Virus record (IMG/VR): IMGVR_UViG_3300013123_000049
Coordinates: 1-20,584 of that record
Reading direction: 5' to 3' (one strand)
Length of the DNA: 20,584 nt
Source: a virus
Below are positions 1-20,584 of this stretch, one piece after another; position 1 is the stretch's first letter, and each line of letters starts with the position of its first letter. The notes beneath the pieces are model-generated. The model ran no database searches and was not told the origin of the DNA. It saw only the letters and a program-made list of their open reading frames with translations. The position numbers and the translations under genes are program-made.

Positions 1-1
1 A

Positions 2-253
2 TGCGGTTGTAATCGTGATACATATTACACGTATTATAAGCAAGACGAAAAGTTTCGGGAAGCAGTCGATGAAATTGAAAATTTAACTTTAGATTTCGTT
101 GAATCAAAGTTGCACAAGCTTATTGAAGGTGGCGACACAGCGGCCACGATATTTTATTTAAAGACAAAAGGCAAAAAAAGAGGATATGTTGAACGAGCTG
201 AGGTACTAATTAATAAAATAGGACTTGACAAGTTTGAAGAATCGTATGAATAA
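2..253 (+). CDS. terS: Terminase small subunit, C-terminal part (5' end outside window)
   Basis: The reading frame is open from the window edge to TAA at 251-253, giving the last 83 residues. The small terminase binds the phage packaging site and hands DNA to the large subunit. Visible features are a helix-turn-helix-like start (GCNRDTYYTYYK), then an acidic helix (EAVDEIENLTLDFVESKL) and the segment TAATIFYLKTKGKKRGYVER. That succession is characteristic of homeodomain-like small terminases of the phBC6A51 type, as I recall the family. The stop codon overlaps the start of the large terminase (TAATG), so the two are translationally linked in the usual packaging order. The true start lies upstream of the window. 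Confidence 0.82.
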   Translation, partial: CGCNRDTYYTYYKQDEKFREAVDEIENLTLDFVESKLHKLIEGGDTAATIFYLKTKGKKRGYVERAEVLINKIGLDKFEESYE

Positions 254-1014
254 TGAAAATCCGTTTTTCTAAAAAATGGTTCAATCTACTTTATTTTATA
301 CTTAATGAAATATTACAAGATAACACTATTCGCATTGTGTTATGTTATGGTGGTAAGTCATCAGCAAAAACATTTTCAATAGCTCAAATACTTTTAAAAG
401 AGCTTATAATCGGACATAGTTCACTTGCGTACAGAAAGGAATCTGTAACAATACCCACAACATTAAGACACTCGTTAAATACAGCTCGCAAACTTTTATT
501 CATGGAAGATGTTGTTAATAAATATGACAGATATTTTAAAACAAGTCAGGCAGAAATAGCTTTAAAAGGACTTGATGATGAAGAAAAAGCCAAAGGAATA
601 GAATCCTATAAGTACATTTTACTCGATGAATTAAATCAATTTACTTTCGATGAGTTTATTAATTTTAATATTTCTTTACGAGGTATTGAAGGACAAAAGA
701 TATTTGGCACATGGAATCCTATCTCAGACCAATCCTGGTTAAAAATTGATTATATTGATAAAATTAAATGGCTTGACACTAAATATAAATTGCCGTGTGA
801 TAATTCATTTGTAAAAATTTCAGAAAATGGTAAAATTATTTTAATTAAAACAACTTATGAGGACAACTACTGGACGGTCGGAAGTCCCGATGGAACTTTT
901 GGGTATAGAGACGAAAATCTTATTGAAGAATATAAGCAATTAAAATTAACAAATTACAATAAATACAAGGTTAATGTATTAGGCGAATGGGGTAAGACTG
1001 AATATGGTGGGTAG
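253..1014 (+). CDS. terL: Terminase large subunit, ATPase half, ending at an in-frame TAG
   Basis: This is the packaging motor ATPase that pumps DNA through the portal. Visible motifs are a Walker A-like loop GGKSSAKT (residues 33-40), Walker B YILLDE (121-126) with the catalytic Glu, and the coupling motif FGTWNP (151-156). The ATG overlaps the small terminase stop. The frame ends at TAG 1012-1014 after GEWGKTEYGG. The same frame then continues open to 1710 and encodes the nuclease domain, so the 253 residues are only half of a normal large terminase; the complete frame would be 485 codons counting the TAG as one. The stop may be a nonsense mutation, a sequencing error, a suppressed or read-through codon, or a real split. 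The following genes look intact, so general decay is not evident. Confidence 0.88.
   Translation: MKIRFSKKWFNLLYFILNEILQDNTIRIVLCYGGKSSAKTFSIAQILLKELIIGHSSLAYRKESVTIPTTLRHSLNTARKLLFMEDVVNKYDRYFKTSQAEIALKGLDDEEKAKGIESYKYILLDELNQFTFDEFINFNISLRGIEGQKIFGTWNPISDQSWLKIDYIDKIKWLDTKYKLPCDNSFVKISENGKIILIKTTYEDNYWTVGSPDGTFGYRDENLIEEYKQLKLTNYNKYKVNVLGEWGKTEYGG
1012..1014 (+). other. In-frame TAG inside the large terminase frame
   Basis: TAG at codon 254 separates the ATPase and nuclease domains without any change of frame. The local peptide reads EYGG-TAG-FLKSW. Large terminases often have a charged or polar residue here, and GAG, CAG or AAG would each become TAG by one base change. No ATG, GTG or TTG occurs in frame between here and 1180. 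The codon is seen directly; its meaning is inferred. Confidence 0.85.
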
Positions 1015-1710
1015 TTTTTAAAATCATGGAATTCTGCCAAGCATACAGGCAGATACATATATAACCCTGAATGTGCTATTTATTTAAGTATTGACGAAAA
1101 TGTTAATCCTTATTTTCCGTGTGGCATTTTTCAAATCCAACCCAATCAAAAAGCAAGTTATTTAATAGACATAATTACGTTGGCAAACCCTGAAAACACT
1201 GTTAAAAAAATGGGTCGGGAAATTGTAAGGCGTTTGATGAGTTGGGGACATCGGGGTAAGATTTATATAACAGGCGATGCAACAAGTCAAAAGGAAGATG
1301 TTAAGCAAGAAAAAGGACATGACTTATTTACGCTTTTAATGATTGAATTAAAAGAATACAAACCAATTCGTTTAGTGTCAAAATCAAATCCGTCTGTAAT
1401 TATTTCCGGTAACTTTTTTAACGATATTTTAGAAAACAATTGTTTTGGACTTGAATTTAATGTTGACGAGTCATGTCGTAAGGCAATTCTTGATTTTGAA
1501 AACACTAAAGAAGATAAAAACGGAAAAATAGATAAAACAACGGTTGAAAATCCGATTACAAAAATAAGATACCAACCTTATGGGCATATTGTTGACTTAA
1601 CCCGATATTTTCTTTGTACTATATTTGCTAAAGAGTACCTAATGTATCAGACCGGACAGAATCCTCATCTATATAAATCCGGTCATAATTTAAGTCTTAA
1701 TAATTGGTAA
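1015..1710 (+). CDS. terL: Terminase large subunit, nuclease half (continues in frame after the TAG)
   Basis: This half holds the RNase H-like nuclease that cuts packaged DNA. The three acidic positions are visible when the frame is numbered from the ATG at 253: D281 in LSIDENVNPY, D342 in ITGDAT, and D448 in HIVDLTRYF. The only ordinary in-frame start is TTG at 1180, which lies after D281 (codon 1093-1095). Initiation there would remove the first catalytic Asp, so a working nuclease needs either translation across the TAG or a very unusual start. The gene ends at TAA, and a 60-bp gap follows before the connector gene. Confidence 0.85.
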   Translation, partial: FLKSWNSAKHTGRYIYNPECAIYLSIDENVNPYFPCGIFQIQPNQKASYLIDIITLANPENTVKKMGREIVRRLMSWGHRGKIYITGDATSQKEDVKQEKGHDLFTLLMIELKEYKPIRLVSKSNPSVIISGNFFNDILENNCFGLEFNVDESCRKAILDFENTKEDKNGKIDKTTVENPITKIRYQPYGHIVDLTRYFLCTIFAKEYLMYQTGQNPHLYKSGHNLSLNNW

Positions 1711-1730
1711 CTTAAAAAAATAATTTAATC

Positions 1731-1829
1731 ATGGAATTTAACAAACTTGCATGTTTAAAAAACAAATGTTGTGAGTTATTTAATTACAAAAGATTATTCT
1801 CGCATAATTCAAACCACAGAACTTAATGC
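1731..1829 (+). CDS. Possible 32-residue small ORF or gene remnant
   Basis: An ATG at 1731 opens a 32-codon frame beginning MEFNKLACLKNKCC. It runs into the start of the connector gene in another frame and stops at TAA 1827-1829. The ATG sits after an A-rich stretch similar to other starts in this window. The first 13 codons are the only part not shared with the downstream gene. It could be a translated leader, the truncated start of a lost gene, or chance. I cannot assign a function. Confidence 0.2.
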
Positions 1830-2652
1830 AATAACAAGTTCTGATATTAGCATTAGACAACTTGTTGAAGGAGCAACACAAATTGAATTACAAGAATATT
1901 TAATTCAGCGGTTCGATTGCTCAAAGGAATTTTCAGACACTTCGCAATGGAGCTTTTCGGTTGCTTACAAAGGAAACAACAGGGTTTATCTAAATGCAAC
2001 CGCCTACAGTGCAACCTCAACTTATACATTAAATGATTTAACCCTGCAAGCTGGCAATGTGTATATCTGCACATCGGCAATTATTACTCCCGAAGCATTT
2101 AATGTAGCTCATTGGGCGTTATTAGGGGCTCAATATGATTTGTTTTATGTAACGCTTCCAAAACCTTTATTCGACCAAGACACGATGTATTATAAAAATG
2201 ATGAAGTTTTTTGGAATGATAAAATTTACAAGGCTCAACGCGATAGTATTCCATTAACACGTGATGCAGCTTTACAAATGGAAAGCATTGAGACAACACA
2301 ATCGGGCAATAAAATACCCGGAGCAATCGATAGTGCTGAAATGTGGGGAACGGGAACATCTTATGCTTTAACAGCGGGAACATTGCCAACCGATATAACA
2401 AAATGGACTAAAGGCGATAATCGTAATCAGCATTTAGTTGAAATATTTATGGATTGTGTAGTTTACAAACTTTGTAAACGAATAGCTCCTAACAACGTGC
2501 CCGAAGCACGCCATAACGCTTGGGTGAGTGCTATTGAAACTTTAAAAAATTATTCAAACGGTAAATTAAATTCACAGTTACCCCTAATACAACCTAAGAC
2601 AGGACAACGAATCAGATATGGCGGAAATCCACGTGAAACTTATAGCTGGTAA
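1771..2652 (+). CDS. Probable head-tail connector (Mu gp36/DUF1320-like) with inserted beta modules
   Basis: The 293-residue product has an N-terminal helical part (YLITKDYSRIIQTTELNAIT, residues 3-22) and a C-terminal part (about 205-290: NQHLVEIFMDCVVYKLCKRI, then AIETLKNYSNGKL). The C-terminal part resembles neck proteins of the Mu gp36 group, which sit under the portal. Between them lie two short motifs, STYTLNDLTLQAGNVYIC...HW (83-115) and TMYYKNDEVFWNDKIYKAQ (138-156). These resemble the Tyr/Trp-rich repeats of small carbohydrate-binding-type modules. The start is GTG at 1771; no ATG is available near it in this frame. The position between terminase and portal fits a connector. The family call is by eye and moderately sure; the module reading is tentative. 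Confidence 0.6.
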   Translation: MSYLITKDYSRIIQTTELNAITSSDISIRQLVEGATQIELQEYLIQRFDCSKEFSDTSQWSFSVAYKGNNRVYLNATAYSATSTYTLNDLTLQAGNVYICTSAIITPEAFNVAHWALLGAQYDLFYVTLPKPLFDQDTMYYKNDEVFWNDKIYKAQRDSIPLTRDAALQMESIETTQSGNKIPGAIDSAEMWGTGTSYALTAGTLPTDITKWTKGDNRNQHLVEIFMDCVVYKLCKRIAPNNVPEARHNAWVSAIETLKNYSNGKLNSQLPLIQPKTGQRIRYGGNPRETYSW

Positions 2653-2655
2653 ATT

Positions 2656-4104
2656 ATGGCAGAAAAAAAATCATTATATAATCGAATTAAAAATTTCCAA
2701 TTGTGGAATATCACAGAAACTATTGAGACAAATAAAAAGAGCGACATAATACCACACGTAGAAAACGATGTTCATAGGGCATTTCGTTACCCTATTCCTT
2801 TACAAATTGAAAGAATACATCAGGATATTGCAAGTTGGCGATATGGCATTAAAGAAGCTGAAAATGCTTACTTTCCTCACAGAGTCAGAATGCAACAATT
2901 GTTTGTTGACACCGTCATTGAGGGGCATATTTGGGCTTGTATGCAAAAGTTAATTGATTTGGCCGTACAAAAAGAATATAAAGTTGGCTCACAAAACAAT
3001 GAAGGCAATTGGATTATTAATGAAGAGGCAACAAAAATATTTCATTCTAAAAAATGGTTCAGAGAATTATTGATAGAAATTGTCAACGCTAAATTCTATG
3101 GTTATTCATTAATTCAGTTAGGCGATTTAGAAATAAAAGGCAAAGATTATAATTTTAAAAATCTTATGCCTTTGAAACGCTGGAATGTAAGTCCTGACCG
3201 TTATCAATATGTTCAAATTCCTTATCAGACAACCGGACTTCAATTTTTCGATGAAAGTATAAAAGACGAAAATGGCGAGGCGTATTCAGATTGGCTTTGT
3301 TACATTCCTACGCCGTCAGAAAATGGGTCGTCAGTTTGTGGTTATGGTTTGTTATATAAAGTTGCCATGTATGGAATAATACTCCGCAATAATTTGGCAC
3401 ATAACACTGATTATAACCAGTTATTTACAGCTCCTTTCCGTTGGGCTAAAACCAACCTTGAATTTGACAGCGAAGAATATAAAAGACTCGAAAGTGCCAT
3501 GTCAAATATGGGCTCGATGGGATATTTGATTACGACTCCACAAGAGGAACTTGAATTTCTAAACGGCAATGCAGGCACTGGTCATCAGAGCTATGCCGAC
3601 CTTGAAAGTCGCTGCGAAAAAAAGATAAGTAAATTGTTTTTAGGACATGCTAACGGTTTGGACGCTCAAAAGCAAGCGTTAAGTAGTGGCGGGGCAAATG
3701 CAAATGTGTTAAATTCTGATGCAACACCGGAAGGAAAAGCATTATTAGAAGTTGAGAAAAGTCAAAATGATTTTGTTCTTTCAGTTCTCAATGAAATTGT
3801 TTATCCGAAATTAAGAAAGTTGGGATTTCCGCTACCAGAAAACGAAATGTTTTATTTACAAAATGATGCCGAAGATTATGAAATGAGATTAAAAAAAGAT
3901 GCCGAAAATAGAGGAGTTGCCGAAATTGCCCAAACAATGAAAAATGCAGGATTACAAATGTCAGCTGAATACTTCTCTGAACGTACAAATATACCAGCCG
4001 AAAAGGTTGAAATTCCGAGTTCGCCATTTGACAGCACATTTAAAAAGTCTTTTCAAGACAAGTTCAATAAAATTCACGCCTTATATAAACACAAACACGA
4101 TTAA
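2656..4104 (+). CDS. Portal protein (DUF935/Mu gp29-like)
   Basis: The 482-residue protein forms the dodecameric ring at the head vertex through which DNA enters and to which the tail attaches. It shows the arrangement of DUF935 portals: an early helical region around residues 55-100 (IASWRYGIKEAENAYFPHRV...), KWFRELLIEIVNAKFYGYSL (about 133-152), and GLLYKVAMYGIILRNNLAHN in the stem region. Next comes the segment KKISKLFLGHANGLDAQKQA, where the DUF935 family has its LG.t.t..../s.a pattern. The C-terminus is helical and Lys-rich. ATG follows the connector stop by 3 bases. Length and gene order (connector, portal, MuF) match Mu-type head modules. Confidence 0.85.
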   Translation: MAEKKSLYNRIKNFQLWNITETIETNKKSDIIPHVENDVHRAFRYPIPLQIERIHQDIASWRYGIKEAENAYFPHRVRMQQLFVDTVIEGHIWACMQKLIDLAVQKEYKVGSQNNEGNWIINEEATKIFHSKKWFRELLIEIVNAKFYGYSLIQLGDLEIKGKDYNFKNLMPLKRWNVSPDRYQYVQIPYQTTGLQFFDESIKDENGEAYSDWLCYIPTPSENGSSVCGYGLLYKVAMYGIILRNNLAHNTDYNQLFTAPFRWAKTNLEFDSEEYKRLESAMSNMGSMGYLITTPQEELEFLNGNAGTGHQSYADLESRCEKKISKLFLGHANGLDAQKQALSSGGANANVLNSDATPEGKALLEVEKSQNDFVLSVLNEIVYPKLRKLGFPLPENEMFYLQNDAEDYEMRLKKDAENRGVAEIAQTMKNAGLQMSAEYFSERTNIPAEKVEIPSSPFDSTFKKSFQDKFNKIHALYKHKHD

Positions 4105-4107
4105 AAT

Positions 4108-4947
4108 ATGGCTGAATATAATTTTAAATATTCCGATGAGCAACGTGATGCTTTAATTCGTCAGGTTTTTGAAGGCGTTATAACAATTGATACGTTACCA
4201 GAAGATTTAATCGAAGCAATTGTCAAGACATTAACACAAGCTGTTGAAGTAGGTTTTGGCGAAATTGTTTTTGGCGAAATTGACGAAAAACTCATCGAAC
4301 TTTTAAAAGAAAATGTATATATGTTTTCCACTGCTAAAACGTTTAGTGAAATTTCTGAAATGCAGTTTAGTTTGGTTGAAGACGGTAATATTATGCCATT
4401 TAATGCCTTTAAAGAAAAGGCAACTGAAATATTTACACGTTATCAGGGCGGTAAGATTATTGAAGCCAATGAAGAAATTATCAAGCCCGGATGGCTGGAA
4501 GCAGAATACAATACAGCCATAGCACAGGCGAATAACGCTAAAAAATGGAATCAGATTGAATCACAAAAAGAAGCATTACCTTATTTAAGATTTTCAACCG
4601 CAGGAAGTCCATGTGAAGAATGTTTACCACTTGAGGGAATTACCCTACCAGTGGACGACCCTTTTTGGGACGACTACGCTCCCGAAATTCATTATAATTG
4701 TCGTTGTGTATTAGAACAAGTTGACGATTATGAGGGTAAAGACACCGAAAGTAAACATGAAGATATTGATAATGCCATTGAGGCGGTTGATATGCCTGAC
4801 GAATTTCGTTTTAATCCTGGAAAAACAGGAAAAATATATAGCGATTCGCACCCTTATTATCAGGGGTTCGATAAAAAAGAATTTCAGGATTCAGAAAACT
4901 TTACTACCTTTAGAGTTTTAAATAAATTAAAAAAACAAAACAAATGA
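4108..4947 (+). CDS. Phage minor head protein, MuF/SPP1 gp7-like
   Basis: The 279-residue protein belongs with MuF-type minor head proteins, which associate with the portal and are packaged in the procapsid. The diagnostic part is at residues 160-203: SPCEECLPLEG, then PFWDDYAPEIHYNCRCVLE. This gives the C169/C172/H195/C198/C200 arrangement (CxxC ... HxxCxC) typical of the MuF C-terminal domain and suggestive of metal binding. The N-terminal region (1-120) is helical and acidic. The gene starts 4 bases after the portal stop, and its TGA overlaps the next ATG. After residue 205 there is a charged tail. No toxin-like C-terminal fusion, as found in some MuF proteins, can be recognised. Confidence 0.88.
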   Translation: MAEYNFKYSDEQRDALIRQVFEGVITIDTLPEDLIEAIVKTLTQAVEVGFGEIVFGEIDEKLIELLKENVYMFSTAKTFSEISEMQFSLVEDGNIMPFNAFKEKATEIFTRYQGGKIIEANEEIIKPGWLEAEYNTAIAQANNAKKWNQIESQKEALPYLRFSTAGSPCEECLPLEGITLPVDDPFWDDYAPEIHYNCRCVLEQVDDYEGKDTESKHEDIDNAIEAVDMPDEFRFNPGKTGKIYSDSHPYYQGFDKKEFQDSENFTTFRVLNKLKKQNK

Positions 4948-5189
4948 AAGTAAAAACAGTTCACTTTATTGATTTAATTCCCGGGCAACCTATTTACGAA
5001 ATGGAGTCGGGCGAGATTAGAGTGCCAATGCCCGATACGAAAGCGGGTCAAATCCTTTGGTTAAACGAAAAGCAGGCTTTAAACGTTCTTGTTGATAAGT
5101 CGGTGATTAATCAGGAATTTATTAGGCAGCATTTTTTAAATATTAAAAAGTGTATTGGTAAACTTGTGTTGACAAACAACAAAATTTAA
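4944..5189 (+). CDS. Small protein of unknown function in head module
   Basis: The 81-residue product begins MKVKTVHFIDLIPGQPIYEM and is not one I recognise. It has no signal peptide or membrane segment. The N-terminal half looks beta-rich (VHFIDL, IYEMESGEIRVPM) and the C-terminal half looks helical (KQALNVLVDKSVINQEFIRQHFL). The ATG overlaps the MuF stop (ATGA), and the next gene begins 6 bases downstream, so it is co-translated with head genes. A small accessory head or connector role is possible from position only. Confidence 0.6.
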   Translation: MKVKTVHFIDLIPGQPIYEMESGEIRVPMPDTKAGQILWLNEKQALNVLVDKSVINQEFIRQHFLNIKKCIGKLVLTNNKI

Positions 5190-5194
5190 TAAAA

Positions 5195-5710
5195 ATGGAC
5201 ACTCGATTATCAGATATGTTAAAACACACAGCAAATGCTCTTAATAAAGCTAAGCGTGTTCTACCTGTTCAACTTGGTAATATGGGTACAAGATATTGGC
5301 TTCAAGCCTTTCGTTTAGAATCATGGGAAGGTATAAAATGGGCAGAAGTTAAGCGTAGAATTCCGGGAACACCTGAATATCTTTATCCAAAGAAAAAAGA
5401 TAAAGGAAGACGTAAAAGAAACATATTATTTGGCAAGTCTGGGGGTACGTTAGGCGGTGCACATTTACATTTAAGAGCAAGTGTAAATACTTCTTTAACA
5501 AAAGCAGAATGGAACGGTATTGAATGGAAAGTACCTGTAAAATATGCTAAGGTTCATAATGAAGGGCTACAAGCTGGACGTGGTGCTGGTTTTAAAATGC
5601 CTAAACGTCAATTTATGGGTAACTCAAAAGAATTGCGTAAAGAAATGCGGGACCATATTATCTTTGTAATTGAACAGGCGTTGAGGCCGAGAAAGGAAAT
5701 GCCATTATGA
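5195..5710 (+). CDS. Virion morphogenesis / tail completion protein, Mu gpG-like
   Basis: The 171-residue basic protein resembles the phage virion morphogenesis family (Mu gpG, P2 gpS). These proteins act at the head-tail joining stage. The supporting part is the C-terminal half: VPVKYAKVHNEGLQAGRGAG, then FKMPKRQFMGNSKELRKEM. This follows the family pattern of YA.iHq.G followed by iP.R.FlG.s, ending in an amphipathic helix. The middle is rich in Lys and Arg (PKKKDKGRRKRN, about residues 67-80), which suggests contact with DNA or a negatively charged partner. The TGA overlaps the next ATG. It lies after MuF as in Mu-like clusters. Confidence 0.75.
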   Translation: MDTRLSDMLKHTANALNKAKRVLPVQLGNMGTRYWLQAFRLESWEGIKWAEVKRRIPGTPEYLYPKKKDKGRRKRNILFGKSGGTLGGAHLHLRASVNTSLTKAEWNGIEWKVPVKYAKVHNEGLQAGRGAGFKMPKRQFMGNSKELRKEMRDHIIFVIEQALRPRKEMPL

Positions 5711-6438
5711 TAAACTTTTTTACATCTCTCAAAACAAAAATTGAAAGCATTGCCAGCATTCAACATGTGCGAATGTGGAATAACCAGCTCGACACCTTAT
5801 TTAATGGCGAAAGTTATATGTTTCCCTTTCCTGCTGTATTTATTGAGTTTGACACGTCACAGATTCAGCAACTTGGCGAGGGTCGTCAGCTTTATAATCC
5901 GCTAATATTTAAGCTACATATTTGCAACTGGCAACTTGATGCCGGCGATGATGCAACTTTTGAGCAGAACCTTGAAATTTATACTTTAAAAAATACCGTA
6001 TATACTTATATTCAAAAGTTTCAACCCGGACTAACAGATGAAAACAACCCCGCTGGCAGTTGTATTCGCATATTGGAAGAGCAGGATTATTCACATAAAG
6101 GGGTTTATCATTACATTCAAACATATAAAACTACTTTAGTAGATTATCAAATGACCGAACCGGTAAATGGTGGTGAATTTGACCCGACACAAGATATTAT
6201 AACAAGTGGCACTTTAACTATAAACGAATATTACGAAATACTTAATGTTTCCGGCGGTGCTGATTTTATAAATGTTGGTGCTGCGTCTAATACTGTTGGT
6301 GTTATATTTAAAGCCACAGGAACGACACCAACAGCTTGGGGAACTGGAAGCGTACAATTGTACCACAGTAAGGTGGATATAGAGGCATTAAATGAACAAG
6401 AAGTAACAATAAACACCTATCAATTTCCAACATTATGA
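5707..6438 (+). CDS. Probable tail terminator with extra C-terminal beta domain
   Basis: The first 150 or so residues (INFFTSLKTKIESIASIQHVRMWNNQL ... TTLVDYQM) resemble the alpha/beta tail terminator or gp37-like proteins that cap the tail tube and meet the head. An N-terminal helix, the FPAVFIEFD strand and a final strand YHYIQTYKTTLVDYQ fit that fold. A further domain follows (about 163-225): SGTLTINEYYEILNVSGGAD, FINVGAASNTVG and VIFKATGTTPTAWGTGSV. It is a repeat-like beta motif that I associate with structural proteins of Bacteroidota phages. The fusion enlarges the protein to 243 residues. ATGA overlaps occur at both ends. The terminator role is inferred mainly from position and size. 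Confidence 0.55.
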   Translation: MINFFTSLKTKIESIASIQHVRMWNNQLDTLFNGESYMFPFPAVFIEFDTSQIQQLGEGRQLYNPLIFKLHICNWQLDAGDDATFEQNLEIYTLKNTVYTYIQKFQPGLTDENNPAGSCIRILEEQDYSHKGVYHYIQTYKTTLVDYQMTEPVNGGEFDPTQDIITSGTLTINEYYEILNVSGGADFINVGAASNTVGVIFKATGTTPTAWGTGSVQLYHSKVDIEALNEQEVTINTYQFPTL

Positions 6439-7280
6439 TAGCAGAAACAATAACAGCAATAATACAACGATTGACAATTCAATTAAAGGCGACATCTCCT
6501 TTTAATGGTTTTAACTTATCGCCTTCGTTAGTGTCTATCTGGTCTAATTTTATTAGCACATTTGCAACAGAAATAAAAACATTGCAAGAATTAATGAATA
6601 TATTTCAAACTGAAATTGAAACAGTTGTCGAAAAGGCTATACCCGGCACGGCGTCATGGATTCGGTCAATGGCTTTAAAATTCCAATACGATGCCTCAAA
6701 TCCACAAGCTGCACAGATTAACAGTGATTTTTCAATTGGTTACCCAACAATAGACTCAACGTTGCAGATTGTTAAATATTGTGCCGTTGTTCCTTATGCT
6801 GGTATAGTGAATATTAAGGTGGCAAAGGGAACGACTCCTACACCATTGGCAGCTTTAGAATTAACCGCTTTTCAGGCATATACTGATTTGTTTATGGCGG
6901 CCGGGTCAAGCGTTAATATAATTAGTGTTGCAACCGATATTATTCGTATTGATGCTGAAATATTTTTTAACGGACAATACGCTTCTGATATGGTCGCAGG
7001 CGGAACAGTTGAAACTGCAATTCTCAATTACTTAGCAAATCTTCCATTTAATGGGGTAGTAAAAGTAAGTGATATTGAAAAGGTTATTATGACTGTACCC
7101 GGAGTTACAGATGTAACATTTAGTCAGGTTTCTGCAACGCCAACAGGCGGAGCGCCTATTAACATGATTTTAGCAAATACAGAATATGTAAGAACGTACC
7201 AAACATATTCGGGAAGTATTGCAAACGACCCTGCTAATCCGTTGGCAACATCATTAACATATACAGTAAGTAATAATTAA
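6435..7280 (+). CDS. Baseplate wedge protein, J-like (Mu gp47/P2 gpJ type)
   Basis: The 281-residue product is shorter than typical J-like proteins, which are often 300-400 residues. J proteins form the wedges that ring the hub and trigger sheath contraction. The best evidence is the C-terminal third: GTVETAILNYLANLPFNGVV, then KVSDIEKVIMTVPGVTDVTF. This is the family pattern of a multimerising helix, a fnG.v..s.l segment and a GV.dV segment. The N-terminal part is helical (ITAIIQRLTIQLKAT, then an IWSNFISTFATEIKTLQEL helix). It lies upstream of the capsid genes, away from the spike and gp25-like genes, which is an unusual place for a J gene. Confidence 0.7.
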   Translation: MIAETITAIIQRLTIQLKATSPFNGFNLSPSLVSIWSNFISTFATEIKTLQELMNIFQTEIETVVEKAIPGTASWIRSMALKFQYDASNPQAAQINSDFSIGYPTIDSTLQIVKYCAVVPYAGIVNIKVAKGTTPTPLAALELTAFQAYTDLFMAAGSSVNIISVATDIIRIDAEIFFNGQYASDMVAGGTVETAILNYLANLPFNGVVKVSDIEKVIMTVPGVTDVTFSQVSATPTGGAPINMILANTEYVRTYQTYSGSIANDPANPLATSLTYTVSNN

Positions 7281-7982
7281 ATGAGCATTTACGATTACGA
7301 TATTACAAATGCAACGGCAAACCTAACGCCACCACATAAAAGGAAACCAACCACGTTGGCTTTCCTGAGTATATTTAATTGGATGTTACAGAAATTGCAT
7401 TATTTATTTTTTTATTCATACGCCGATGGTGATGCTGCGGGTGATTGGATAAGCGGAGTAACTTATGTTTTTGAAAGTAAAACAAGATATAATAATGCTA
7501 TATATGAATGTATAAACGGTACAGGTGTAACGAGTGCGATTAATCCGGCAACCGATACAACCAATTGGATAAAAGTACAAGATTCCTTTATCGGTTGTCG
7601 GGAACGAGTTAAATACACAGGAGCAAAAATAAGTATTGAATTTGCCCTAAACAGATATTTTAAACTTGTTACTACGCTTCCATTTTTAGGAGCAAATCAC
7701 ACAACGCAAATTTATATAACAAACAACGCTTCGTCGTCTAATAATTTTTGGTTAAGTAACGGCGGTTTAAATGCTCGTACATCTTATTTAAGTAACGGAA
7801 GTAATCAGCGTTATTTTTTGGGAAATGCTTATACCCCGGCATCTTATAATTTTACAATTTATGTTCCGATAGCTTTATTTAATAGTTTGGGAACAACTAC
7901 GGCAAACCGTGAAGGAGTAATTAGGTCGGTTGCCGACAAGCAAGTGCAATGTGGAAAAATTTATAACATAATAACATACTAA
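7281..7982 (+). CDS. Baseplate/tail protein with a carbohydrate-binding-like module
   Basis: The 233-residue product follows the J-like gene directly, in the position of Mu gp48-type baseplate proteins. Residues 23-46 form a helical, aromatic-rich segment (PTTLAFLSIFNWMLQKLHYL). Residues 56-98 make a compact module, WISGVTYVFESKTRYNNAIY then ECINGTG...NPATDTTNWIKV. Its W...Y....v.y....Y.c......P......W pattern is like small chitin- or cellulose-binding-type modules. The remainder is Asn/Ser/Thr-rich and beta-like, as in fibre or receptor-binding parts. It probably links the wedge to a fibre or binds a surface sugar. The role is inferred from context. Confidence 0.5.
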   Translation: MSIYDYDITNATANLTPPHKRKPTTLAFLSIFNWMLQKLHYLFFYSYADGDAAGDWISGVTYVFESKTRYNNAIYECINGTGVTSAINPATDTTNWIKVQDSFIGCRERVKYTGAKISIEFALNRYFKLVTTLPFLGANHTTQIYITNNASSSNNFWLSNGGLNARTSYLSNGSNQRYFLGNAYTPASYNFTIYVPIALFNSLGTTTANREGVIRSVADKQVQCGKIYNIITY

Positions 7983-7983
7983 A

Positions 7984-8745
7984 ATGAATATTATTAACAC
8001 GAATCAGATTGTTGACCCGAATGTTCAGCAACCATTTACAGGAAAGTCTTTGACGTTTTTACAAAATTCAACTAAAGAAATGCTGGATGCAATAGTTAGC
8101 GGAATGTTGGGTTATAAACCAAGCCCAACCGTGCCTGTGGCTCTTTATGGTGCTGTTGAGACAGCTTTAGGTGGAGGTGATTTCTCCTACTCGGAAGGAT
8201 ATATTTATTTTAATGGCGAAATTTATAAACTTGAATATGTCGCCTCGATACACATATTAACAGGCAAAGAGGTAACCATAACAACGACAGCCGACCCGAC
8301 AGCCGACCCTGTTGTGTTTTTCGATAACAGCACAAAAAACGTGCATGATGTTAGAAAACTTGTAATATCAGATGGCTGGGGAGGTGATTTTCAGTTTTCG
8401 AGTGTAATTTATTTGCAAAATATTGCCATTAAATCAAAATGTCTAAATATTGGGGTGTGGAATATGGACACTGCCGATAACAGTATTGTAGCACATGGGT
8501 TAAATTATTTAAAAATAAGAAATATTTCCGCAATAATATTTAACGATAGTTTGTCTTTTGCAACAGAATTAATTAGTTCAGATGATGGAGGTACAAGTGG
8601 TGACACAATGATATATTTTGACGCAACGTATATTCGTTTATACAGAAGAGTGGGAGGAATGTATGATTCGGTAGGTTACGCTAACACACCAACTATTGAC
8701 GGTGTGGTAACAAGAGGTTATATTAAAATAGATTATGTAATTTAA
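7984..8745 (+). CDS. Tail fibre or baseplate appendage protein
   Basis: The 253-residue product begins MNIINTNQIVDPNVQQPFTG, then KSLTFLQNSTKEMLDAIVSG. A beta-rich part follows with the segment YSEGYIYFNGEIYKLEYV (about 70-87). This start-plus-GYIyyNGEiY layout is one I associate with appendage proteins at the ends of baseplate operons in Bacteroidota phages. The C-terminal part (about 125-253) looks like a beta-sandwich. A perfect 12-bp tandem duplication (8286-8309) gives the TADPTADP linker. It is the last gene before a strong terminator. No enzymatic motif is seen; host attachment is inferred. Confidence 0.5.
   Translation: MNIINTNQIVDPNVQQPFTGKSLTFLQNSTKEMLDAIVSGMLGYKPSPTVPVALYGAVETALGGGDFSYSEGYIYFNGEIYKLEYVASIHILTGKEVTITTTADPTADPVVFFDNSTKNVHDVRKLVISDGWGGDFQFSSVIYLQNIAIKSKCLNIGVWNMDTADNSIVAHGLNYLKIRNISAIIFNDSLSFATELISSDDGGTSGDTMIYFDATYIRLYRRVGGMYDSVGYANTPTIDGVVTRGYIKIDYVI
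8286..8309 (+). repeat. 12-bp perfect tandem duplication
   Basis: GACAGCCGACCC occurs twice back to back inside the appendage gene. It encodes TADPTADP, a Pro-containing linker between the N-terminal and C-terminal parts. The unit length keeps the frame, so copy number could change linker length without breaking the gene. Confidence 0.9.
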
Positions 8746-8784
8746 AGTTTCTTTTGAGTTTTGTTTGTTTTCTCAAAGTGTTGT

Positions 8785-8812
8785 GGCTTCCAGAAATGGA
8801 AGCCCTTTTTTT
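8785..8812 (+). terminator. Intrinsic terminator closing the packaging/early baseplate operon
   Basis: GGCTTCC (8785-8791) and GGAAGCC (8798-8804) form a perfect 7-bp GC-rich stem with loop AGAAAT, followed by one C and seven T (8806-8812). It lies 39 bp after the appendage stop codon. The minus-strand side lacks a comparable T-run, so it works for + transcripts only. It overlaps the end of the convergent minus-strand gene by 2 bases. Confidence 0.88.
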
Positions 8813-9050
8813 ATTCATCTCTTAATTTATTCGGTCTCCGCTTTTCATTGGCTGTCATCTTTCTGTAATACTCAAGAAGTTCGTTTTGCTGATGTTGTGA
8901 GAGTTTTTTTTCAATCCATTCTTCAATAATTTCTTCGGTTAATTTACTTTTACTTTTGTGCTTTAAATAACAAAAAGCAATAGCGATTCTATATATTCTT
9001 GGTCGTAAATACACCTGAAATCGCCTCATCATAAACGGTTCAATTGGCAT
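8811..9050 (-). CDS. Small ribbon-helix-helix-like protein on the opposite strand
   Basis: The 79-residue product is the only convincing minus-strand gene. MRRFQVYLRPRIYRIAIAFC (residues 8-27) could be the DNA-binding strand and first helix. LTEEIIEEWIEKKLS (about 37-51) follows as a second helix after a KSKSK turn, matching the Arc/MetJ ribbon-helix-helix layout. A charged tail ends the protein. It could start at either end of the cluster MPIEPFMM; the outer ATG is given. A TATCTTTG box lies about 20 bp upstream. It converges with the terminator on one side and diverges from the capsid operon on the other, so a repressor or late-gene modulator is plausible. Length and fold are consistent, but the assignment is by pattern only. 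Confidence 0.55.
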   Translation of the reverse strand: MPIEPFMMRRFQVYLRPRIYRIAIAFCYLKHKSKSKLTEEIIEEWIEKKLSQHQQNELLEYYRKMTANEKRRPNKLRDE

Positions 9051-14703: not shown

Positions 14704-15105
14704 ATGGACGAATTAACCGATGTTCAATGGTTAGAAAAAATAAACGAAGAAGCCGAAGCAAAAGCAAGGGAAATGGAAGCCCTGTTAGTTTGCGAAATTA
14801 AGCCAGTCGTTTATGTGGTCGAACCTTTAAAAGATGCTGCCGTAGCATTCCTTCGATTGCCCGATGCAAAACAGACCTTAAAATTATTAAGAGCTATGGC
14901 AGCCGATTATGAAAGTGGTTGTGAATTAATTGTACGCTCTCAACTTGTGCGTAATGTTACAGGTTATGAGGGTATTTGTTCAGACGCTCGTTTTATGAAC
15001 GAGGTCGGACAGTATGATTTTCATAATGCAAAATTAAACGCTTCTTTAGTTCTTGATGCTAAATTGCTGATTGACTTTTACGTTGACGAGTTTAAAAAAA
15101 AATAG
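14704..15105 (+). CDS. Tail assembly chaperone, zero-frame product (gpG analogue)
   Basis: The 133-residue product is the short form of the tail assembly chaperone, made between tube and tape measure genes as in lambda G/GT and in Mu- and P2-type phages. It is helical and acidic (EKINEEAEAKAREMEALLVC, KQTLKLLRAMAADYESGCEL, NAKLNASLVLDAKLLIDFYV). It ends DEFKKK at TAG 15103-15105, which directly follows a run of nine A. A -1 slip on this run leads into a second open frame up to 15314, so two products are expected. The position and frameshift are the main evidence; sequence similarity alone would not identify it. Confidence 0.8.
   Translation: MDELTDVQWLEKINEEAEAKAREMEALLVCEIKPVVYVVEPLKDAAVAFLRLPDAKQTLKLLRAMAADYESGCELIVRSQLVRNVTGYEGICSDARFMNEVGQYDFHNAKLNASLVLDAKLLIDFYVDEFKKK
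15094..15102 (+). promoter_or_regulatory. Slippery site for programmed -1 frameshift
   Basis: Nine A (AAA AAA AAA in frame, preceded by TTT and followed by TAG) contain the heptamer A AAA AAA at 15096-15102. A -1 shift gives ...KKIANEREAIEEF with no stop until 15312. In the -1 frame a TAA at 15093-15095 lies just before the run, so the switch must take place within these few bases. A -1 slip on an A-rich heptamer is the classic bacterial and phage mechanism. Confidence 0.85.
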
Positions 15106-15314
15106 CAAACGAGCGGGAAGCAATAGAAGAATTTGACAATATAAATAGCGAATTATTGCGAATGGACGCCGTAATTCGCTATTGTTTTAAAATAGAACCT
15201 GAAATGATTGAGGATTTTGAACAATATGCAAAACTTTATTCACAGGGGAAATTTATTTTAGATTATACAAATATTTTACAAACAAAGAGGGCAGCCGATG
15301 CAATGATTCAATAA
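15096..15314 (+). CDS. Frameshift extension of the tail assembly chaperone (gpGT analogue)
   Basis: In the -1 frame the sequence is open from the slippery run to TAA 15312-15314. It adds about 70 residues beginning IANEREAIEEFDNINSELLR and ending TKRAADAMIQ. There is no start codon or start region for it alone; a separate gene would leave 210 bp without a product between the chaperone and tape measure. The fused protein would be about 203 residues. Its T-like part normally binds tail tube and the tape measure. The tape measure ATG follows its stop by one base, which fits the known order. A 12-bp hairpin lies within this part. Confidence 0.8.
   Translation, partial: KKIANEREAIEEFDNINSELLRMDAVIRYCFKIEPEMIEDFEQYAKLYSQGKFILDYTNILQTKRAADAMIQ
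15144..15183 (+). promoter_or_regulatory. Perfect 12-bp RNA hairpin downstream of the slippery site
   Basis: AATAGCGAATTA (15144-15155) pairs exactly with TAATTCGCTATT (15172-15183). Inside the 16-base loop, GCG (15158-15160) can pair with CGC (15167-15169), leaving a six-base tip. The stem starts 41 bases after the slippery A-run, further than the usual 5-9 bases for a frameshift stimulator. It may help frameshifting, affect RNA stability, or set the ratio of tail products. Confidence 0.6.
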
Positions 15315-16706: not shown

Positions 16707-17417
16707 ATGGAAACAAGATATTTTAAACCAATTTCAGAAAAGAAACTACCTTCGGCGGAAAATTTTATTTTTCCAAAAAGTGCTCCAGATTTGCATAACC
16801 CAAAATTAAATATTCCTACGCTTGAAGAAATAGCCATCTCGTCAGGTCTGGTTGCCGGAAAAGGTGCTATCATGGCAAATACTTTGAGAGCAAAGAGAAT
16901 CCTTGAAACAATGACACCTATTAAATATGGAGCATTAGGATTTCCGATATACTCAAATCTTGTAATTAAAGCCGATACCTATCAGAATAATGCCGGAATA
17001 ACAATAGGAAGTTTTAAAGAGATTTGTCTTGACGCTGTGTTAATGGAAATAGGGCATGAAAATAATATTATAACAACAGACATACAAGGAAGAGCCAATA
17101 CTATAATTGAATATATCGGGTCGAGAAGTCCAAATATTCATATAACCGGAATTATTCCGGCTGTAACTCCCGGCGTTTATCCAACCGACACAGTTAGTAA
17201 CCTTATGATAGCTTTAAACAGTAATCGTTCTTTGCAAGTTGTGTCATGGTATTTGGCAATGGTGAAAATTTATAATATTGTTATTAAGGGAGACAGTATT
17301 AAACAAGAGGAAGGAAGTCAGGAATATCAACGGTTTGAGTTCGATGCTATAGCCGATTTCCCTGTGGAATTAAAATTACAAAAAACAATTAACAATACAG
17401 GGGGTATAATTGCATGA
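16707..17417 (+). CDS. Tail/baseplate protein, DUF6046-like
   Basis: The 236-residue product lies between tape measure and hub, where Mu-type phages encode the protein joining tube to baseplate. The central segment IITTDIQGRANTIIEYIGSR, followed by SPNIHITGIIPAV, gives the pattern of a G...t..EYIg...~.I.i.G motif. I recall that motif from the DUF6046 family of Bacteroidota phages. The C-terminus is beta-rich (QRFEFDAIADFPVELKLQK). It probably connects tube and hub, possibly as a gp53-like or tail-initiator element; that is inference. Its TGA overlaps the hub start (ATGA). Confidence 0.55.
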   Translation: METRYFKPISEKKLPSAENFIFPKSAPDLHNPKLNIPTLEEIAISSGLVAGKGAIMANTLRAKRILETMTPIKYGALGFPIYSNLVIKADTYQNNAGITIGSFKEICLDAVLMEIGHENNIITTDIQGRANTIIEYIGSRSPNIHITGIIPAVTPGVYPTDTVSNLMIALNSNRSLQVVSWYLAMVKIYNIVIKGDSIKQEEGSQEYQRFEFDAIADFPVELKLQKTINNTGGIIA

Positions 17418-18697
17418 GTATGCGTCCTTATACGATGATTACGATTGTTCAGCAACCTAATGATGTGTTTAAAATACAGCGGACAAAAACATTTTCTTTG
17501 GATTTTGTTAATTCGGGACAAGTTGTAAGCTCATGGCAGAACCTAACCGACACCGCAAAAATAACGCTTCCTCGAAATATTTATATTTTAGATGAATCCA
17601 ATAATCGTATAAATTTAGGCGGTCAGATAAATGGGCAGGGACCAACTATTTATAACAACGAGCATGTAATAAATGCGGTTGTTAATCAGGTTTTACAAGG
17701 GCAAATAATAGCAGTCAACGCAATTGATTACCCTGTAATTATGCGAGGTGATAAGATTAAAATTGAAGTTGGAATATTTTTTGACCAGATGAATGGACAG
17801 GGGGAAGTTTTAGAAAGCAATGTTATTTTTGAAGGTTATATCACAAAGATTAAAAACAGGATTCCAATCGAATTAGAATGTGAAGACGAGATGTGGAAAA
17901 TAAAACAAATACCTGTTGTTAATAAGGTTTGGAAAAGTTCAGACTACACAGTTCAGACAATGCTTACTGAAATGTTAGCTGGAAAAAATATAACCGTTAT
18001 TGATCGGGTTACAGGTTCGGTTCAAACAAATGTGGGTGATTTCAGAACACAAAACGAAACGGTTGGAGACATTCTTAATCGTTTAAAAACCGAAGGTAGT
18101 ATTTATTCTTATATGCGAGGCAATGAGTTACGCTGTAGTGGAATAGTTTATTACCCACAGGACAGGATTGAGTGTGTTTTTGCTTTTCAAGAAAACATCA
18201 TTAATGACGACTTGGAATATCAGCGAAAAGAAGATATTAACGTAGCAATTAAGGCGATAAGTCAAACAATTACAAAATCTAATTCTGAATTTAATAAAGA
18301 CAATTCGCCAAAACAAAAGAATGAAAGGCTTGAAGTATTGGTTGGGAAAAATGGGGTGATTAAAAAAGCTGACTGGGGCAACTATAAAGGTAGTATTGTT
18401 TCTTTACCCTTTTTAGGTATAACAACCGAAGAAGAATTAATAAGACAAGCCGAACTTTATCTACCTAAATTTTATTACACAGGATTCAAAGGGTCATTTA
18501 CCACGTTTGGAATTCCTATGGTAAAACATGGTTATTCGGCTGTACTTCGAGATAATATATTACCCGAACGCAATGGAGAGTATTTGATAAAATCAGTAAT
18601 AACAACTTTCGGAACGCAATCATTGAGACAAAAAGTTTTATTACATTTGCGTATTGACAGAGGTTATACAGTTGAACAACTTAATTCAGGTTTATGA
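17414..18697 (+). CDS. Baseplate hub protein (Mu gpP/T4 gp27-like)
   Basis: The 427-residue product is in the hub position, just before the spike. Hub trimers join the tail tube to the spike. The N-terminal region (SLDFVNSGQVVSSWQNLTDT, then AKITLPRNIY) is the beta part that begins such proteins, with an insert around residues 60-110. It continues with YPVIMRGDKIKIEVGIFFDQ, VIFEGYITKIKNRIPIELEC, a helix TVQTMLTEMLAGKNITV and ETVGDILNRLKTEGSIYSYM. This is the usual hub sequence of strand, EDEmW, then a domain with a helix pair. The C-terminal third ends in a strand-rich domain. Both ends overlap neighbouring genes by ATGA. Confidence is good for hub, lower for exact family. Confidence 0.75.
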   Translation: MSMRPYTMITIVQQPNDVFKIQRTKTFSLDFVNSGQVVSSWQNLTDTAKITLPRNIYILDESNNRINLGGQINGQGPTIYNNEHVINAVVNQVLQGQIIAVNAIDYPVIMRGDKIKIEVGIFFDQMNGQGEVLESNVIFEGYITKIKNRIPIELECEDEMWKIKQIPVVNKVWKSSDYTVQTMLTEMLAGKNITVIDRVTGSVQTNVGDFRTQNETVGDILNRLKTEGSIYSYMRGNELRCSGIVYYPQDRIECVFAFQENIINDDLEYQRKEDINVAIKAISQTITKSNSEFNKDNSPKQKNERLEVLVGKNGVIKKADWGNYKGSIVSLPFLGITTEEELIRQAELYLPKFYYTGFKGSFTTFGIPMVKHGYSAVLRDNILPERNGEYLIKSVITTFGTQSLRQKVLLHLRIDRGYTVEQLNSGL

Positions 18698-19284
18698 AAA
18701 ATGAACAAGAGCATACAGAAACAATTCAGGCGATAAGAACGGCGATTCGTAAGATTGCAAGGACTTATGGTGTTGATACGGTTGAGATAGTTGTTGCTGA
18801 GGTTATGGCTGTTGATAAAGTGAAAAGAACTTGTGATGTTAAGCCGGTAACAGGGAAAGGCGATACGCCTATTGAGGGAGTGTTTTTAAACGTTGTTCCA
18901 AATGACGGTGAAATAAAAGTCCCTGCAGTTGGTTCTATGGTTGTGGTTGTTCAATCTACTTATAACAAATCTTACGTAATAGGATTTAGCGACTTGACGG
19001 AATGGAATATAACGATTAGCAATACGGTTATTGATATGGTTGCCGGAACTATTCAATTTGGTGATGGAAGCTATGACGGATTAATTAAAATTATAGACAT
19101 AACAGCCAAATTAAATAATTTAGTAACGGAAATAACGGCTTTAAAAACTGCCTTTAATTCACACACACATCCGACAGCAGCAACCGGTTCCCCAAGTATG
19201 CCGACCATTTCTTTTACTGGAAATTTCTCAAACTTTAACAAAACAGATTATGAAAATAATAACATTAAACACGGAACAACTTAG
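18694..19284 (+). CDS. Baseplate spike protein (gpV/Mu gp45-like)
   Basis: The 196-residue product is the membrane-piercing spike. Residues 30-105 form an OB-fold-like part (VEIVVAEVMAVDKVKRTCDV, KVPAVGSMVVVVQSTYNKSY). These lead to a beta-helical middle (SNTVIDMVAGTIQFGDGSYD), a coiled helix (KLNNLVTEITALKTAFNSHT) and HTHP with H157 and H159. An HxH motif near the tip of such spikes binds iron in P2 gpV; here it is followed by a Gly/Ser/Pro tail. The gene ends in TAG and is in the same frame as the next gene, with four codons between. It overlaps the hub stop. No lysozyme domain is present. Confidence 0.75.
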   Translation: MKNEQEHTETIQAIRTAIRKIARTYGVDTVEIVVAEVMAVDKVKRTCDVKPVTGKGDTPIEGVFLNVVPNDGEIKVPAVGSMVVVVQSTYNKSYVIGFSDLTEWNITISNTVIDMVAGTIQFGDGSYDGLIKIIDITAKLNNLVTEITALKTAFNSHTHPTAATGSPSMPTISFTGNFSNFNKTDYENNNIKHGTT

Positions 19285-19296
19285 ATAATTAATAAT

Positions 19297-19611
19297 ATGG
19301 CAAATACAGTTGTAGATTTTAAGCAAGTTGATAACGACCTTTATTTTGATACGGTGAAAGGTGATTTTATTTTTACTCCGAGTGACAATCAGCATATTTT
19401 AGATATTTGCGTAAGTTGCCCGGGCTGGTGGAAGAATGCCCCGCAAATGGGGGCAAATCTACCTCAACTTTTAAAAAGTAAATTAAACGTTTCTTTAGTT
19501 GAAAACACGCTAAAAGCACAACTTGAGGCTGATATGTTTCAGGTTGTGCGTCCTGTTATTATAAAGAATGGAAATAATTATACAATAAATCCAAATGCAA
19601 GTAGGTTATAA
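19297..19611 (+). CDS. Baseplate wedge protein, gp25/W-like (Mu gp46)
   Basis: The 104-residue product begins MANTVVDFKQVDNDLYFDTV, followed by KGDFIFTPSDNQHILDICVS and CPGWWKNAPQMGANLPQLLK. That is the typical gp25-like layout: D-DLYFD...G--, a n.q.i..i....G.wk..P..G segment, then a helix. These proteins link the sheath's first ring to the wedge. The length is normal for the family. It follows the spike and precedes the X-like proteins, as in Mu-type order. Its stop lies 17 bases into the next gene. Confidence 0.78.
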   Translation: MANTVVDFKQVDNDLYFDTVKGDFIFTPSDNQHILDICVSCPGWWKNAPQMGANLPQLLKSKLNVSLVENTLKAQLEADMFQVVRPVIIKNGNNYTINPNASRL

Positions 19612-19903
19612 AATACAATACGGTCAATCTATATATGATGTGTGCCTTATGCTTTATGGTAGCCTCGATTATTTATTTACATTTTTAACAGATAATAATT
19701 TAACGCTTTCCTCGACAAATATTACAGGACTTACAATTTATTACAATAATACATTAGGAATTGATAACCGGCAATCGCTTCGCAGAACAGGAAGTGTTAT
19801 TTATTGTACAGCACCACTTCCAACCCTTCCGATAGGTGCAAAATTTACCGAAGAAGGCGGAATTAAATTTACCGAAGAAGGTGGAATTAAAATAATAGAA
19901 TGA
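19595..19903 (+). CDS. LysM-like tail protein X, copy 1
   Basis: The 102-residue product begins MQVGYKIQYGQSIYDVCLML and continues YGSLDYLFTFLTDNNLT. GQSIYDV...YGS.DYL..l..dN is the LysM-like pattern of phage gpX-type proteins, which attach to the baseplate or bind peptidoglycan. A strand-rich part follows (residues 40-80). It ends with two exact 8-residue repeats, KFTEEGGI, encoded by a 24-bp tandem repeat, then KIIE. It is 30-40% similar by eye to the next gene, in both the LysM-like part and the tail. It overlaps the gp25-like gene at the start and the second copy at the end. Confidence 0.68.
   Translation: MQVGYKIQYGQSIYDVCLMLYGSLDYLFTFLTDNNLTLSSTNITGLTIYYNNTLGIDNRQSLRRTGSVIYCTAPLPTLPIGAKFTEEGGIKFTEEGGIKIIE
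19841..19888 (+). repeat. 24-bp tandem repeat encoding KFTEEGGI twice
   Basis: Two 24-bp units (19841-19864 and 19865-19888) are identical but for one C/T difference in a Gly codon. They encode KFTEEGGI KFTEEGGI at the end of copy 1. The silent difference suggests a recent in-frame duplication. Confidence 0.9.
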
Positions 19904-20202
19904 TTTATATAACAAAATATAATCAGAGTATTTATGACGTTTGTTTGCAGACTTACGGAACGTTAGATTATCTTTTAAAGCTCGTAACCGACAATAATAT
20001 TAATAACTTAAATACACAGATTTTAACAAAAACTTCTTTTATTTTTGATGAGAGGTTAGTAATTGACAGATTGTTAAAAGATAATAACAACCGACAAAAT
20101 GTAACTTATAACACAGCGACTCAGGTGTTTGGAGTTAAACTAACCGAAGAAAGTGGAATAAAAATTACTGAAGATGGAGTTATTAAAATAATAGATTTAT
20201 GA
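19900..20202 (+). CDS. LysM-like tail protein X, copy 2
   Basis: The 100-residue product begins MIYITKYNQSIYDVCLQTYG, then TLDYLLKLVTDNNINN. It is clearly related to copy 1 (QSIYDVCL, YG.LDYL, TDNN). Its C-terminus holds two diverged 8-residue repeats, KLTEESGI and KITEDGVI (20137-20184), then KIIDL. The two copies differ in the middle, where copy 2 has DERLVIDRLLKDNNNRQNVT. The start overlaps copy 1 (ATGA) and its stop overlaps the fibre gene. A tandem duplication followed by divergence is the simplest reading; the two products may form different rings or bind different cell-wall partners. Confidence 0.65.
   Translation: MIYITKYNQSIYDVCLQTYGTLDYLLKLVTDNNINNLNTQILTKTSFIFDERLVIDRLLKDNNNRQNVTYNTATQVFGVKLTEESGIKITEDGVIKIIDL
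20137..20184 (+). repeat. Diverged 24-bp repeat pair at the end of copy 2
   Basis: Two 24-bp units (20137-20160 and 20161-20184) match the tandem repeat of copy 1 with several changes. They encode KLTEESGI and KITEDGVI before the closing KIID. The shared repeat shows that the two genes kept the same C-terminal motif. Confidence 0.75.
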
Positions 20203-20584
20203 AAAAAACGATACTGTCAATACTTTTACTTATTGTTGTTATTTCAGGATATTCGCAAAAGATTAGCCAATATACACGAACAACAAATCTTTACGGAAAT
20301 ACTCCACCATACCTTGCGGATTCGGCTTTAATGGACGTGTCTGTTTATAACTATGCAGGGAGCTATTCCACACGTGCATTTACTTATAGTTCATTTAGAG
20401 CTTTATTAGCAGCCTCGTTGGCTGGAAATGATACTAATTATTTAAAGACGACAGGGGATAATGGATATGGTACATATAATTTTTACGGCGACTTTCAAAC
20501 GCAAAGTGGCGTAAATTTGTTATTAAATAAACCATATCTAACGTATAGTAATTACTGCGGTGCAGGGCATATATATGGTACTGA
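20199..20584 (+). CDS. Fibre-like protein with Sec signal peptide (3' end outside window)
   Basis: The open frame runs from ATG 20199 (ATGA overlap with copy 2) to the window edge, giving 128 residues. It begins MKKTILSILLLIVVISGYSQ: two Lys, a hydrophobic core and a SQ-type Bacteroidota cleavage site without a lipobox Cys. The mature part (KISQYTRTTNLYGNTPPYLA..., then YLKTTGDNGYGTYNFYGDFQ and TQSGVNLLLN) is Gly/Tyr/Asn-rich and resembles the start of a trimeric tail fibre. A host-attachment role is likely from position at the end of the baseplate genes. It is the second protein with an export signal in this cluster. Confidence 0.7.
   Translation, partial: MKKTILSILLLIVVISGYSQKISQYTRTTNLYGNTPPYLADSALMDVSVYNYAGSYSTRAFTYSSFRALLAASLAGNDTNYLKTTGDNGYGTYNFYGDFQTQSGVNLLLNKPYLTYSNYCGAGHIYGT

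Follow-up and report, generated by a model that had tools for sequence, protein, structure and literature searches.

The question raised by this locus is whether an in-frame TAG inside the terminase large subunit gene of a tailed phage is a device by which DNA packaging is controlled or a defect of one record. The stretch of DNA analysed (the window) comprises the 20,584 bases of one virus record, a fragment of a phage; besides the terminase, its gene content is that of a contractile-tailed phage, with portal, head protease, virion structural protein, tail sheath, and baseplate hub. Three options for the codon had been offered in an earlier note made from the sequence alone: suppression or read-through that lets host or phage control packaging, a nonsense mutation that arose recently, or an erroneous base. 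From comparison with a near-identical record and with wider relatives, the TAG very probably reflects one G-to-T nonsense change that this record alone shows, be it a real inactivating allele or a base error; a role as a device for read-through or suppression can almost certainly be dismissed.

Results

The interrupted terminase gene

Coordinates of the features discussed are collected in Table 1. The terminase frame contains one stop, the TAG at codon 254, and reading through it gives a product of 485 amino acids that is matched in profile searches by Pfam PF04466 (Terminase_3; 6.6e-16) and by PHROG 2 (terminase large subunit; 4.9e-22). Single-sequence search gave no solved structure for the terminase. 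A further 231 codons are open 3' of the TAG, and the nuclease residues encoded there are intact (D281, GAC; D342, GAT; D448, GAC). No ATG, GTG, or TTG lies between the TAG and D281; the earliest is TTG 1180, beyond this first catalytic aspartate. The open reading frame and both profile matches bear out the description in the earlier note of an otherwise complete terminase with an in-frame TAG, and the codons agree with what it had said of the three aspartates and of the first start after the stop. The flanking genes, which it had called intact, do have open frames; the other genes of the window are open as well, which argues against general decay.

Table 1 Features of the window bearing on the terminase TAG, with positions and strand. 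Remarks refer to the near-identical record (L002/L082) and to the homologues in L084.
Feature	Position	Strand	Remark
Small terminase gene, 3' part	1..253	+	TAA stop 251-253 overlaps next ATG; contains differences 124 and 145
Terminase large subunit gene (ATPase and nuclease domains)	253..1710	+	Interrupted at codon 254; intact homologue in L002/L082
TAG codon, this record only	1012..1014	+	GAG in near-identical record; GAG/GAA in all relatives
Probable tail assembly chaperone ORF ending in TAG	14704..15105	+	L084 homologue also TAG, same place
Tail/baseplate-region gene ending in TAG	18694..19284	+	L084 homologue stops with TAA at matching residue

A near-identical record with an intact gene

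Scanning of viral contigs yielded a second record for this phage (IMGVR_UViG_3300013126_000854; L002, full contig L082), the one near-identical record found (n=1). A 42-base exact pattern that allowed any base at the variable position likewise matched only one near-identical contig among the viral contigs; the same pattern gave no match in genome contigs, and megablast of the whole window gave none in phage records. The L082 alignment spans positions 1-8950 of the window (8,950 bases, 0 gaps) and shows 3 mismatches (99.97% DNA identity). The mismatches (window/L082) are 124, T/A; 145, C/T; 1012, T/G. The first two lie in the small terminase gene and are synonymous third positions (ATT/ATA and GCC/GCT, respectively). 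Around the third, L082 reads GGTGGGGAGTTTTT and the window GGTGGGTAGTTTTT; G at 1012 gives L082 a GAG codon (Glu) and thus an uninterrupted terminase gene. Because an uninterrupted frame for ATPase and nuclease is present in L002/L082 and absent here, where codon 254 is TAG, the terminase gene of this record is a broken copy. A second contig from the sample of L082, L083, is identical to positions 17194-20455 of the window (3,262 bases). Taken together, these two comparisons cover about 12.2 kb, in which the TAG is the only protein-altering difference.

Codon 254 in wider relatives

The earlier note had proposed that the closest relatives be compared at this position. Codon 254 is Glu (GAG or GAA) in 80/80 relatives fetched from viral contigs (43-100% identical), a tally in which L082, the full contig of L002, counts that record a second time. 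No stop was found in the aligned terminase frame of any fetched relative, and no split terminase among them. E254 belongs to the 58 alignment columns that do not vary among 20 representatives (90% identity), and it stands immediately after an invariant Gly-Gly.

Reading of TAG in this phage

No tRNA genes were found in the 20.6 kb window, and no internal TAG in window genes besides terminase codon 254. Two genes are terminated by TAG, the chaperone ORF and the gene of the tail/baseplate region (Table 1), and their L084 homologues stop at the same places; in the second pair the L084 homologue ends in TAA at the matching residue, which makes TAG a true stop in this phage. Recoding of TAG (code 15) was rejected on these three grounds: the lack of other internal TAG codons, the use of TAG as terminator, and the lack of a tRNA in the window.

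Other features of the window

The tail assembly chaperone probably carries a programmed -1 frameshift (15091-15312): the ORF listed in Table 1 terminates in TTTAAAAAAAAATAG, and the overlapping -1 frame continues as far as about 15312. L084 shares both the slippery run and the downstream frame (41% and 53% identity). Tailed phages are known to have this arrangement. A single minus-strand ORF (79 amino acids; 8811-9050) is located between two plus-strand structural blocks, just 5' of the head protease gene. Two adjacent small genes (19595-19903 and 19900-20202) close with similar short repeats (KFTEEGGIK and KLTEESGIKITEDG; 19841-19913 and 20137-20209).

Discussion

The G-to-T difference at 1012 turns the codon for an invariant glutamate, GAG, into TAG. 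Translation would then end after the ATPase domain, at 253 amino acids, and the nuclease domain would be left with no usable start ahead of its first catalytic aspartate; a true TAG allele would for this reason be expected to leave the phage without a functional packaging motor, unless an undamaged copy or a suppressor came from elsewhere. Loss of terminase function is thus the predicted outcome of such an allele. The argument of the earlier note that a simple two-gene split would leave an inactive nuclease is sound; what it points to is loss of function and not read-through. A true split of the terminase into two genes is itself of negligible probability: ORFs 253-1014 and 1180-1710 exist in a mechanical sense, but the latter is without the first catalytic aspartate, and the genes of close relatives are intact and single.

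Of the three options, nonsense mutation and base error are those that stand, in view of the GAG of the near-identical record and of relatives that all have Glu and no stops. Functional read-through, by which a host or phage tRNA would suppress the TAG and so control packaging, is highly improbable. The open codons beyond the TAG, with their intact nuclease residues, are compatible with it, yet follow equally from a recent change. Programmed read-through predicts a stop that is conserved in close relatives; here the TAG is missing from a record 99.97% identical in DNA and from all other relatives, it is the only internal TAG among window genes, others of which end in this codon, and the window is devoid of tRNAs. 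The residue replaced is moreover an invariant Glu, as against the conserved Gln of the TAG-recoding phage phAss-1 (PMC10607447). More improbable still is a strain in an amber-suppressor host that tolerates, or makes use of, a TAG only recently gained by its packaging gene. With glutamate in the near-identical record and in the 80 relatives, the codon is best read as an ordinary knock-out or base error and not as a control switch.

As to which of these two the private G-to-T change represents, they appear about equally likely, and we lean slightly to base error, since a replicating phage would not be expected to have a lethal allele as its consensus. An error of sequencing or assembly at 1012, where a G run is altered (GGGG to GGGT), has roughly an even chance; position 1012 is the sole non-silent difference in the 12.2 kb compared, the gene is essential, and the residue affected is invariant, although consensus bases of assemblies are usually correct at good coverage. 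Just under even is the chance that the nonsense (amber) allele is real, having arisen recently and inactivated the gene in a phage or in a prophage copy. In favour of this, the record represents a true sister strain, with two synonymous differences from L082 that resemble normal strain variation, and a prophage copy could bear such a mutation without immediate loss; against it, the remaining window genes are intact, wider decay is not apparent, and nothing pointing to integration was found.

The TAG is of little importance beyond annotation, and the record should not be cited for a regulated or split terminase. It serves as a reminder that, where an isolated in-frame stop is met, a near-identical record should be checked before recoding is proposed.

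Comparison with known systems

In classical amber mutants of phage genes, one base change creates a TAG in an essential late gene. The change in the window is of the same one-base kind, although a base error may account for it. The phage phAss-1 and its relatives with recoded stop codons resemble the window in that their terminase large subunit gene also has TAG in frame (PMC10607447). In phAss-1 (translation table 15), TAG occurs in 41 ORFs, three suppressor tRNAs are present, and the recoded TAGs of the terminase are at conserved Gln sites (PMC10607447). The window, in contrast, has one internal TAG, at an invariant Glu, and no tRNA. Full-length terminase homologues are found in the Flavobacterium phages FPSV-S1 and lotta8-1 (Bacteroidota-type tailed phages), with about 33% identity over 96-97% of the query and with the same domain content as the window terminase (PF04466, PHROG 2); these homologues align in one piece, whereas the copy in the window is interrupted by one stop, at codon 254.
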